This document shows positions 40,778-44,323 of a DNA stretch of 64,000 bases, in pieces; within the stretch, counting starts at the first letter, position 1, and every line of letters starts with the position of its first letter. The notes below the pieces were generated by a model. It worked only from the letters and a program-made list of their open reading frames with translations. It searched no databases and was not told the origin of the DNA. The stretch is from Candidatus Methanoperedens nitratireducens (GTDB lineage Archaea > Halobacteriota > Methanosarcinia > Methanosarcinales > Methanoperedenaceae): contig NZ_JMIY01000005.1 of assembly GCF_000685155.1 (NCBI RefSeq), positions 108,928 to 172,927 on the forward strand. The letters run 5' to 3'. A program made the translations under genes and the position numbers.

Positions 40778-43700
40778 CTATTTCTTTTGAACCAATCTTC
40801 TTAATAGAAAGGCAGCTAATATCCCGAGAAGGGGAAACGTGCCGTAACTCAATTTTTTATCATTCTCTACTCTTAGAACCGCACCTTCCCGTGTAAACGC
40901 AAGTGATGCAGGAATTCCCCACTTATCATTTCGTTCCATGGATTCGATATATATTACATGTTTTCCAGGTGACATGTTTGAGATTTCGATCTCAGCAAAG
41001 ACCTCCTCAGTCTGGGAATCAAATATCCCATCAACAGGACTCATCAAAATTTTCTCTTCTGGAGTATCAATGTAATATCTCGCACCTCTGATCTTCATCT
41101 TGTATCCTGCCACTGCAAGAGCCTTTACTATAGTCCTGTTCCCCTGCTTAAGCAATGATATATCTTTAACAGCAGGCAGCATGTTAAATCCGATTATATC
41201 ATGGGATCTGGGTACATGGCAGGCCTCACATTTCTCATTTTTATGCTCTTCATCACCTATATACACGGCGTTATAATTATCCCGTGTTGCGGCATGGCAG
41301 CTTCTGCAATCCCTCGGGGTCTTATAGCCAACTGGATGTGTTTTGGTACCTTCTTCTCCACCATGACACGCACGACAGGCGTTATTTCCTCCGCCGTTCA
41401 GGGTTTTATGTCTGCCAAGCGAATCTATCCTTTTTTCTACAAAGCCTTCAGTTCCATGGCATGAGAGGCAATCCCCGCCGCCGTCCCTTCCACCGAAGAT
41501 CTGCGGGGAATGAAAGTTTTGCGGGATTCTTCCTGCAACCAGCGTGGAATTTTCCCAGAGCCAGCCTGCATTGTAGCCTTCTATTGTCTCATTTTCCATA
41601 ATTTTCTTAATATCAGGAGATAGAGCAACAACCTCCTCTAAAACCACCATATTTTTTGGCTTTGTCTGGATGATTTCAGATACCTTTGCACTGAAAATGG
41701 TGATATTCTTTGACTGGTACCCGGTGTAGTTTATGCCTGGCGTGTATTCAAAGACCTCACCCCTTCCTACAAAATCCTCATAAGAGAGATTCCCGGCCTG
41801 AAGCTGCAGGAAAGCCTCATCGCTTTCTGTGTTCACTGCCTTTAATAAAAGGCTGAAATTTTCTGAGATGTTCCATCTCTCGCCCTCAAAAATGGCTTTA
41901 CGCTTTCCTGATTCTATATTTATATACATATCATTTTCGGTAATGTTTGCTAATATAAGGAGGGCAGTAGTTTCATTGTACTCTTTTTTATTTGTAAAAT
42001 TAGCCAGCTCCCTTGTATAGAAAATATCATCTTTGTCTCTATCAACTCTTTCGATTACCCTGAGTCTTATTTCTGGTCTTGCGTAGACATGGCACAAATA
42101 ACATGAGATTGTATTGTTCTCAGCATGAACCCTTTTCAATCTGAAGCCTTCAAACTGGATAAAGCTTGTATTTTCTGATTTAAAAATTTCTGTGACATTA
42201 AGCACAATCGCAGGTAACTTTACGCTTGAGTTGTCTATGGTAAAATACTCTTCATATGTGTAATTCCCAATGTTTATAAGACTTCTATCCACGGGTACAT
42301 TATCTTTGAGAATTTCGATGATCGCATTCCCTCTTACAACGGAGATCTCCAGCAGTTTTAGCCTGAATCTAAATCCTAAATCAATAAAATCTCCGGCTTT
42401 GACACTGAACTTATTCCTCTCCCTGTCAAGTTCAACCAGAGATGTTCTATTCTTGTATATTAAAGTAGCATTTCCCCATTTTTCTGAATTTTCTTTATTC
42501 AGGTGGCAGTATATGCAGTTTATGCTATCAGGCAGTTCACGCAAAGCATAGTGGGATGCGGTAGATCTCATGTTTTTGCCCTGAGTCTTCACACTATTAG
42601 CATGGCACTCCTCGCAGATGCTCCCTGTAGTGACATTAAGATTTACAGCGTTACCAGGGTTATCATTCAGGCTGGCATTCTTAAAATGGGAATATACCAT
42701 GGGAGCACGGTATTTCTGGTTTAAGGAATGGCATTCATCATTACTGCACTTCCTGGGCGATTTATATTCAGGCGGGTGTCCATCTGGCTCTGCTCCATTA
42801 CCATGGCAGGCCCAGCATGCGCTGTTGCCGCCTCTATTTAAGCGGTAGTGTACGCTGTTATTAAATGCCGCAATATCTATTCTCTTATCCAGAGGCCCGC
42901 CTGTGGCTTTGATATCATGACATGAGGCACAGTCTGCTCCTCCTCCACCTGCGGCAACATTGTGAACAAATAAAGCGGTTGTAAGCTGTGAGGAATTACC
43001 GTGACATTGTAGGCATGTTTTATCAGACCATTCACCGAGGGAGTGATTAAAAAAGGATGTACCGTCATTTGCTGCTGCAGGCGTAATGCCAGTCTTATTC
43101 TGGATCTCAGGTGGGACGGGGTAAAAGGAAAAAGCATTATAGAAGTAGTTTCCCGATGCGCCATTGCTGTAATGGCAGTTGGCGCACCAGTAGCTTGTAC
43201 TGGTTATACCCTGATTTGGCATATTTCCAGATCGAATGTTCTCTACTTTTCCTAATGCCTCTGGATCGTGAAGAGTATTTCCGTGGCAGTAATCGCAGCT
43301 TGATTGCTGGCTGGCATTGCTCCAGTACGCTGGCTGTGAGCCGTTCCACAGGGCTCCAGAATAGGGATTTGTGCTGTGGTTAACAGGTGTGGGTATGATC
43401 GGGGCCTGGGCGAACTTAATAAGTCCACTTCCCTGGTGGCAGGAGGTGCAGTTTGCAGCAGAAAACGGTAATCTAAAGCTAAAATTAGAGACATGACAGC
43501 TTCCGCACTTTGTGGCATTTATGCCCTGATAGCTTCCGTTCGGTAATATATACTTGATACTATGAACATCTGATGGTACCTCTGAATGGCATCTTATGCA
43601 CTCAACCTTTCCAGCATGTTTATTCTTTTGTATCCTGTCATTTAAATGACAGTTGTTGCAGAACCCGGAATCTGCTAAAGGTCTGGTTATATTTGTTCCG

Positions 43701-44323
43701 TGTAGCTTATCCTGTCCATGACAGTTTGTACAGTTTGGGCTGCCAGCAGGATGCAGCGGATAGATGGAGGTGATATCAGATGTATGATTGCCTACCAGTA
43801 TGTTGTTCGGGTTCTGCATCACGTCCTTATAAACAGTCGAGGAGTTCTGGTGGCAGTATGCACAGTATCCTTCTCCAGGAGATATGCCAAAACCCGCATT
43901 CATGCCGTAATGGGCTGCGCTGGCACTGGCGCTATACTTAAAAAGAGACGAGGTCTTGCTGTGGCAGTCATAGCATTGAACATTCACAGAGATATTGGCA
44001 TTTTTCAGATGATTGTTAACTCTAAGAGCGCTCCCTTGCTGATGGCAGTCCTCACATGTATAGGTTGATACAGGGCCATGCGGTATACTTGAGGTGTTCA
44101 CATTATAGTGGCATCCTGTGCAGTCGCTGCTGGAGAGACCGGCATCTGCTGTATTGATATTTATATGAGATCCAAAAAAAGAGGCGTTAATTGCAGGATA
44201 AACAGGAGAGGGGATCGGCATATCAGATACGTGGCAATCCATGCATTCCTGCGCATCACCTATATACACAAAAGAAAAGGCTACCAGCAATAAAAACAGA
44301 GTTTTTTTCATCATATCAAACAA
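40778..44323 (-). CDS. Giant 23-haem surface c-type cytochrome with S-layer-like segments
   Basis: 1,181 residues with a signal peptide (KKTLFLLLVAFSFVYIGDA) and a C-terminal anchor helix (about 1158-1176) before RRLVQKK. I count 22 CxxCH motifs and one CSNDECH (Cx4CH), so up to 23 haems: 18 in residues 27-605, one near 743 and four at 954-1045. Between them are haem-free beta-rich segments (about 610-740 and 750-950) whose VKAGDFIDLG, NGNAIIEILKD-type strands resemble Methanosarcinales S-layer repeats. NxS/T sites are abundant, consistent with a glycosylated surface protein. In ANME archaea such fusions are proposed to carry electrons through the S-layer to outside acceptors. Translation may start at a nearby ATG (MMKK). 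Confidence 0.92.
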   Translation of the reverse strand: MFDMMKKTLFLLLVAFSFVYIGDAQECMDCHVSDMPIPSPVYPAINASFFGSHININTADAGLSSSDCTGCHYNVNTSSIPHGPVSTYTCEDCHQQGSALRVNNHLKNANISVNVQCYDCHSKTSSLFKYSASASAAHYGMNAGFGISPGEGYCAYCHQNSSTVYKDVMQNPNNILVGNHTSDITSIYPLHPAGSPNCTNCHGQDKLHGTNITRPLADSGFCNNCHLNDRIQKNKHAGKVECIRCHSEVPSDVHSIKYILPNGSYQGINATKCGSCHVSNFSFRLPFSAANCTSCHQGSGLIKFAQAPIIPTPVNHSTNPYSGALWNGSQPAYWSNASQQSSCDYCHGNTLHDPEALGKVENIRSGNMPNQGITSTSYWCANCHYSNGASGNYFYNAFSFYPVPPEIQNKTGITPAAANDGTSFFNHSLGEWSDKTCLQCHGNSSQLTTALFVHNVAAGGGGADCASCHDIKATGGPLDKRIDIAAFNNSVHYRLNRGGNSACWACHGNGAEPDGHPPEYKSPRKCSNDECHSLNQKYRAPMVYSHFKNASLNDNPGNAVNLNVTTGSICEECHANSVKTQGKNMRSTASHYALRELPDSINCIYCHLNKENSEKWGNATLIYKNRTSLVELDRERNKFSVKAGDFIDLGFRFRLKLLEISVVRGNAIIEILKDNVPVDRSLINIGNYTYEEYFTIDNSSVKLPAIVLNVTEIFKSENTSFIQFEGFRLKRVHAENNTISCYLCHVYARPEIRLRVIERVDRDKDDIFYTRELANFTNKKEYNETTALLILANITENDMYINIESGKRKAIFEGERWNISENFSLLLKAVNTESDEAFLQLQAGNLSYEDFVGRGEVFEYTPGINYTGYQSKNITIFSAKVSEIIQTKPKNMVVLEEVVALSPDIKKIMENETIEGYNAGWLWENSTLVAGRIPQNFHSPQIFGGRDGGGDCLSCHGTEGFVEKRIDSLGRHKTLNGGGNNACRACHGGEEGTKTHPVGYKTPRDCRSCHAATRDNYNAVYIGDEEHKNEKCEACHVPRSHDIIGFNMLPAVKDISLLKQGNRTIVKALAVAGYKMKIRGARYYIDTPEEKILMSPVDGIFDSQTEEVFAEIEISNMSPGKHVIYIESMERNDKWGIPASLAFTREGAVLRVENDKKLSYGTFPLLGILAAFLLRRLVQKK

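Follow-up and report, generated by a model that had tools for sequence, protein, structure and literature searches.

The window, meaning the whole 64-kb stretch of DNA that was analysed, comes from a Ca. Methanoperedens genome of 3.2 Mb and holds on its minus strand a gene for a fusion of S-layer and multihaem cytochrome parts. The open frame covers 40778-44323 when counted from a TTG codon, and the best coding sequence within it starts at an ATG at 44311 (or 44314), which opens a typical signal peptide, MKKTLFLLLVAFSFVYIGDA (Table 1). This signal peptide looks cleavable. Its residues G18 and A20 are invariant in 10 orthologues, and with such a G-x-A at its end the N-terminus of the protein should be free. 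The 39 N-glycosylation sequons of the protein are in keeping with a location outside the cell.

The gene sits between those for citrate synthase and a LUD-domain protein; the other neighbours tested encode a class IV aminotransferase, prephenate dehydratase, a GATase and an MFS transporter. No second multihaem gene was found within the window. A role in an operon was rejected, since the window has no other multihaem gene and the neighbours tested are absent beside the orthologues in the flanks examined.

Table 1. Coordinates of the cytochrome gene, its parts and a gene found beside related loci
Feature	Position	Strand	Remark
Whole CDS, S-layer/multihaem cytochrome fusion (ANME MHC-A type)	40778..44311	-	1177 aa plus stop
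Signal peptide, residues 1-20	44252..44311	-	G-x-A precedes the predicted cleavage point
N-terminal 18-haem region, residues 21-605 (17 CxxCH + 1 Cx4CH)	42497..44251	-	Proposed outward arm
Cx4CH site CSNDECH, residues 522-528	42728..42748	-	Third haem ahead of the first S-layer half
First S-layer half (PF07752), about residues 610-722	42146..42484	-	Pfam match, fold model
Single linker haem site CYLCH, residues 737-741	42089..42103	-	Motif count
Second S-layer half (PF07752), about residues 798-910	41582..41920	-	Pfam match, fold model
C-terminal four-haem block, residues 948-1032	41216..41470	-	Partial internal duplicate of residues 457-529; proposed membrane-proximal
Beta-strand domain, residues 1039-1148	40868..41197	-	pLDDT mostly >80; putative spacer by the membrane
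C-terminal hydrophobic helix and basic tail, residues 1158-1176	40784..40840	-	Likely membrane anchor, weak here, clear in orthologues
Neighbouring 16-haem cytochrome gene	L039 4013-6793; L041 2058-4805		

Haem motifs and S-layer module

A direct count of motifs agrees with the first-pass annotation of this DNA, giving 22 CxxCH and one Cx4CH (C522, CSNDECH), or 23 sites, of which the first lies at residue 23; the 1177-aa protein has no Cx3CH. All 46 of its cysteines fall inside a haem motif, a pattern that cannot be ascribed to chance. The positions of the motifs likewise yield the grouping of 18-1-4 that had been described: 18 sites (17 CxxCH and the Cx4CH, which is the sixteenth of them), a single site (C737, CYLCH) and a final four (C948-H1032).

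A full-length AlphaFold2 model had a mean pLDDT of 41.4, with haem regions mostly below 50 and useless for haem distances. Sequence searches of the PDB gave no cytochrome match, either for the whole protein or for the Cx4CH module, the latter with an approximate query (second residue K for L). A profile of ten orthologues reached MA0829, an S-layer protein of Methanosarcina acetivorans, and cytochrome c7 only weakly. Residues 414-528 score 31.7 bits against PF02085 (cytochrome c3/class III; cut-off 22.9), a match repeated in six of ten orthologues. Cytochrome c3 resembles this protein also in having CXXXXCH sites (PMC10454114), but there is no sequence match to a solved c3 and the likeness is one of profile.

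The two haem-free segments were proposed in the first-pass annotation to be S-layer-like, and the PF07752 profile check confirms this for both. Singly they score 33.9 and 31.3 bits (cut-off 30), together they reach 59.2 bits, and the domain is matched in 10/10 orthologues. The same part of the profile is matched by each (88-201 in the first half, 105-218 in the second), and the halves may be a single unit composed of subdomains I and II, or one subdomain present twice; comparing the sequence of one half with that of the other gave no significant match.

The fold is also that of an S-layer protein, a point on which the earlier proposal had been made to depend. A model of residues 604-945 (342 residues, 26 homologues) had a mean pLDDT of 75.7 and showed beta strands in both halves. 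Its only PDB fold matches at E<=0.001 were 3U2G and 3U2H, both structures of MA0829, with 285 and 275 aligned columns covering both halves. The angle between the halves differs from that in the MA0829 structures (rmsd 18 Å). In a profile search of the PDB with the S-layer module, MA0829 was again the sole match (E=1.3e-8). Haem-free proteins with PF07752 domains are encoded in the same genome, and these could form the coat itself.

Relationship to known multihaem cytochromes

Full-length orthologues within the genus are about 49-62% identical. Among named Ca. Methanoperedens relatives found with the orthologue profile, identity was 92% for a genome from an African mine, 86% for Kmv03 and 49-61% for the others, while the more distant named relatives are ANME-2 archaea. 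Each of ten aligned orthologues carries 22 CxxCH and one Cx4CH. No relatives were found in viral contigs.

Proteins of this kind are already known. Chadwick et al. (2022) described ANME multihaem cytochromes of type A (MHC-A) as S-layer/cytochrome fusions with one haem between the S-layer parts and a C-terminal membrane helix, for which a conduit model was proposed (PMC9012536). Membership of type A was judged by an S-layer domain homologous to MA0829, a single linker haem, 20 to 80 motifs and a C-terminal transmembrane helix. The protein has such a domain (PF07752, with 3U2G/3U2H as best fold and profile matches), C737 CYLCH is the only motif in the linker, and its 23 motifs lie within the range; the helix is considered below. 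The marks of type B are an N-terminal peptidase M6-like domain and an adjacent CcmF2. Pfam detected no peptidase M6-like domain, and no CcmF2 was present among the neighbours tested. The protein is therefore the Ca. Methanoperedens form of MHC-A and an orthologue of described proteins. Both the surface fusion with a role in extracellular electron transfer and the single haem between the S-layer halves, as put forward in the first-pass annotation, thus find support, having already been published for MHC-A (PMC9012536).

Some differences from known members are nevertheless apparent. The protein shares with type A the lone linker haem, the many haems and the lack of an N-terminal peptidase-like domain, but it is shorter than many members and has 23 sites. 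With type B it shares the S-layer halves and their linker haem. Type-B-like frames differ from it in that 17 haems follow the S-layer part, or the gene is split, and they mostly have CxxCH where this protein has Cx4CH.

Two published S-layer cytochromes come close. Ouboter et al. reported a 23-motif Ca. Methanoperedens protein that is differentially expressed and upregulated on an electrode (PMC10874420), and Leu et al. listed an S-layer protein of Ca. M. manganicus to which a count by CXXCH assigns 22 haems (PMC7082337). The present protein has the same haem count, which likewise becomes 22 if only CxxCH is counted. Compared by description, both are probably its orthologues.

The Cx4CH site

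The Cx4CH motif is a conserved element. It occurs as the third haem before the S-layer module in 46 distinct frames from the genus and its ANME-2 relatives, 41 of which have four haems after the S-layer part; the remainder are three ANME-2-type frames with a longer C-terminal part and two type-B-like frames with 17 haems after it. Among the MHC-A frames scored it is found at the identical position in 44/44, with varying inner residues (CSNDECH, CNNNSCH, CSNMDCH, CSGGDCH), and a further locus outside the automatic count (L030) has CNNNDCH there. Conversely, the equivalent site is CxxCH in 11/13 scorable non-A frames. Twelve S-layer cytochrome frames have no Cx4CH (CxxCH at the site in 11, the other being a fragment), and these look like type B in having either 17 haems downstream of the S-layer module or a split gene, rather than by their N-terminal domains. 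None of the peptide patterns used to retrieve the named loci contains the Cx4CH motif, so this conservation is no artefact of how the loci were found.

An internal duplication offers a view of how the site relates to ordinary ones. Between residues 944-1007 and residues 457-529 the identity is 47% (E=8e-17), and CSNDECH aligns with CRSCH across a two-residue gap, which points to a normal haem site with two residues added or, in the duplicate, lost. The supply of axial ligands also fits. Outside the motifs the protein has 24 histidines. In one alignment, of ten orthologues, 23 of these do not vary; the remaining one, H78, is kept in the ten close relatives of another. H1118, in the C-terminal beta domain, is probably no haem ligand. 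Setting it aside leaves 23 spare histidines for 23 haems, the number for bis-histidine ligation throughout, Cx4CH included.

The search for cytochrome maturation genes recovered System I components in the genome, namely four CcmC/F-type genes, two for CcmE and two for CcmH. Contig C5 gave no CcmC/F match, and one CcmC/F-type gene adjoins another S-layer cytochrome of the genome.

The earlier suggestion that the Cx4CH site needs a special haem lyase or stays empty, to which decay of the site may be added, is not borne out and appears very unlikely. The motif does depart from CxxCH, and several CcmC/F-type genes exist, including the one beside another S-layer cytochrome. Against this, the site is present in every MHC-A frame scored despite its varied inner residues, and the number of conserved spare histidines fits an occupied site. 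CcmF2 has been tied to MHC-B (PMC9012536), and the type-B-like frames of Methanoperedens have CxxCH at this position. In addition, cytochrome c3 carries two CXXXXCH sites (PMC10454114), and CxxxxCH motifs have been described in Methanoperedens cytochromes that are expressed (PMC4683180). With conservation, spare histidines and System I genes together, no special lyase is called for. The site is thus a constant character of the family rather than damage or a defect, and it very likely binds haem by way of ordinary System I.

The Cx4CH motif marks type A, and counts restricted to CxxCH miss such sites. No mention of its strict conservation in type A was found in the openly licensed literature, and a term search of the text of PMC9012536 for Cx4CH gave no match. 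An earlier mention elsewhere is possible; the observation appears to be unreported, but it is a modest one. A functional meaning can also be imagined, in which the two extra residues alter the geometry or potential of this haem and make it a switch point that sets the direction of electron flow, or gates it, on the path linking the S-layer haem with the outer arm, although we regard this as speculative and unlikely.

Two type-B-like frames with 37 haems (L077, L078) have Cx4CH (CANRECH, CGDRECH) where other type-B-like frames have CxxCH. This hints at recombination between the types or at an ancestral insertion.

Polarity, electron transfer and related loci

The C-terminus bears on how the protein is oriented. 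Its beta-strand domain (Table 1) has no Pfam name and contains invariant DG.F.SQ and GKH-type residues. It is followed by a hydrophobic stretch at about residues 1158-1174 and then RR..KK. The C-terminal anchor claimed in the first-pass annotation is therefore partly upheld: the hydrophobic stretch and basic tail are present, but the hydropathy of this particular protein is weak (Kyte-Doolittle 19-residue mean of at most 1.44, compared with more than 1.6 in most orthologues), and the helix is predicted at low pLDDT. Some MHC-A homologues (L024, L025, L026) end in PxVPGF, a helix and a basic tail, like archaeosortase sorting signals, and the genome has three exosortase-family matches. Archaeosortase anchoring of the present protein was rejected, as it has no clear signal and no such match in NCBIfam.

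Variation among relatives is uneven. The number of haems upstream of the S-layer part varies, up to 57 in one ANME-2 frame, and there is little change in the C-terminal part, which comprises four haems and the beta-strand domain. Three ANME-2-type relatives have a pair of hydrophobic helices after the fourth C-terminal haem and further haems beyond the pair, as expected for a hairpin through the membrane. Taken together, the C-terminal anchor, the cleavable signal peptide, the constant four-haem side and the hairpin forms suggest that the four-haem block probably lies close to the membrane, with the 18-haem block on the outside.

We thus favour, with a probability of about 0.8, an MHC-A-type electron conduit through the S-layer with an outward 18-haem arm, a linker haem in the coat, a four-haem block on the membrane side and a System I haem at Cx4CH. 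From this arrangement of features we infer the orientation, haem occupancy, direction of electron flow and surface location of the protein. Following removal of the signal peptide, the chain would begin outside with the 18-haem arm. The two S-layer halves would then form part of the protein coat, and the one haem between them would lie in its plane; the four-haem block, the beta-strand spacer and the terminal membrane helix would follow. Electrons would enter the four-haem block from small pseudoperiplasmic cytochromes, pass to the single linker haem and on to the 18-haem arm, and leave for outer cytochromes, minerals, an electrode or a partner cell. The Cx4CH site would hold an ordinary covalent bis-histidine haem, attached by System I.

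This polarity is opposite to that of the first-pass annotation, which had read the 18-haem block as an inner wire below the S-layer and the four-haem block as an outer head. Such a layout requires the N-terminal hydrophobic segment to be kept as an anchor and the C-terminal helix to lie elsewhere than in the cell membrane. It could draw on the C-terminal stretch of this protein being under the usual threshold and on signal cleavage being a prediction, yet most orthologues have a clear C-terminal helix with basic residues, three homologues carry a hairpin of two helices at this place, the G-x-A ahead of the cleavage point is invariant, and it is the N-terminal haem number that varies widely while the C-terminal one is mostly four. 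We therefore give it little credence. A similarly low probability attaches to the idea that the protein is not an essential through-conduit: its 23 haems would serve chiefly for charge storage, like a capacitor, or for contact at the surface of the coat, and most of the current would run through other cytochromes. A culture grown on nitrate indeed showed hardly any expression of S-layer cytochromes (PMC4683180), an Fe-reducing culture showed low expression (PMC7327174), and the cluster stressed as strongly upregulated on electrodes was OmcZ-like (PMC10874420). Five Methanoperedenaceae genomes contain no S-layer/cytochrome fusion (PMC7327174), and the fusion is thus not essential for the lifestyle. 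However, the 23-haem S-layer cytochrome was itself upregulated on the electrode (PMC10874420), and a mere store gives no reason for the one-haem linker to be kept in all S-layer cytochromes examined. High expression of S-layer cytochromes has also been reported where methane oxidation depended on Mn (PMC7082337).

The foremost candidates for carrying electrons through the protein coat of methane-oxidising archaea are S-layer cytochromes, although direct proof is still lacking. The preferred reading, an outward arm joined to the membrane through the coat, adds a testable anatomy: a constant core running from the three haems that begin with Cx4CH through an S-layer half, the linker haem, the other S-layer half, four haems and a spacer to the helix, and an outer arm that varies.

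Other cytochrome genes lie near related loci. In six of these (L039, L041, L042, L044, L045, L046) a 16-haem cytochrome gene adjoins the MHC-A gene, and its product is a possible redox partner of MHC-A. Its nearest relative in the present genome is on another contig (L126, C7:138762-141584; 58% identity). The genome also encodes a type-B-like S-layer cytochrome at about C1:91900-97050 (L130 5927-11038), followed by a CcmF homologue. At this locus and four others (L084, L088, L089, L099) the type-B-like gene is split in two, with the break falling inside the second S-layer half. The first of the two frames has 12 haems and stops at a TGA; the other, with 16 haems and a signal peptide of its own, comes directly after, in the same frame in 4/5 loci. 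This split is kept between species, and the S-layer half concerned may be completed by two separate proteins.
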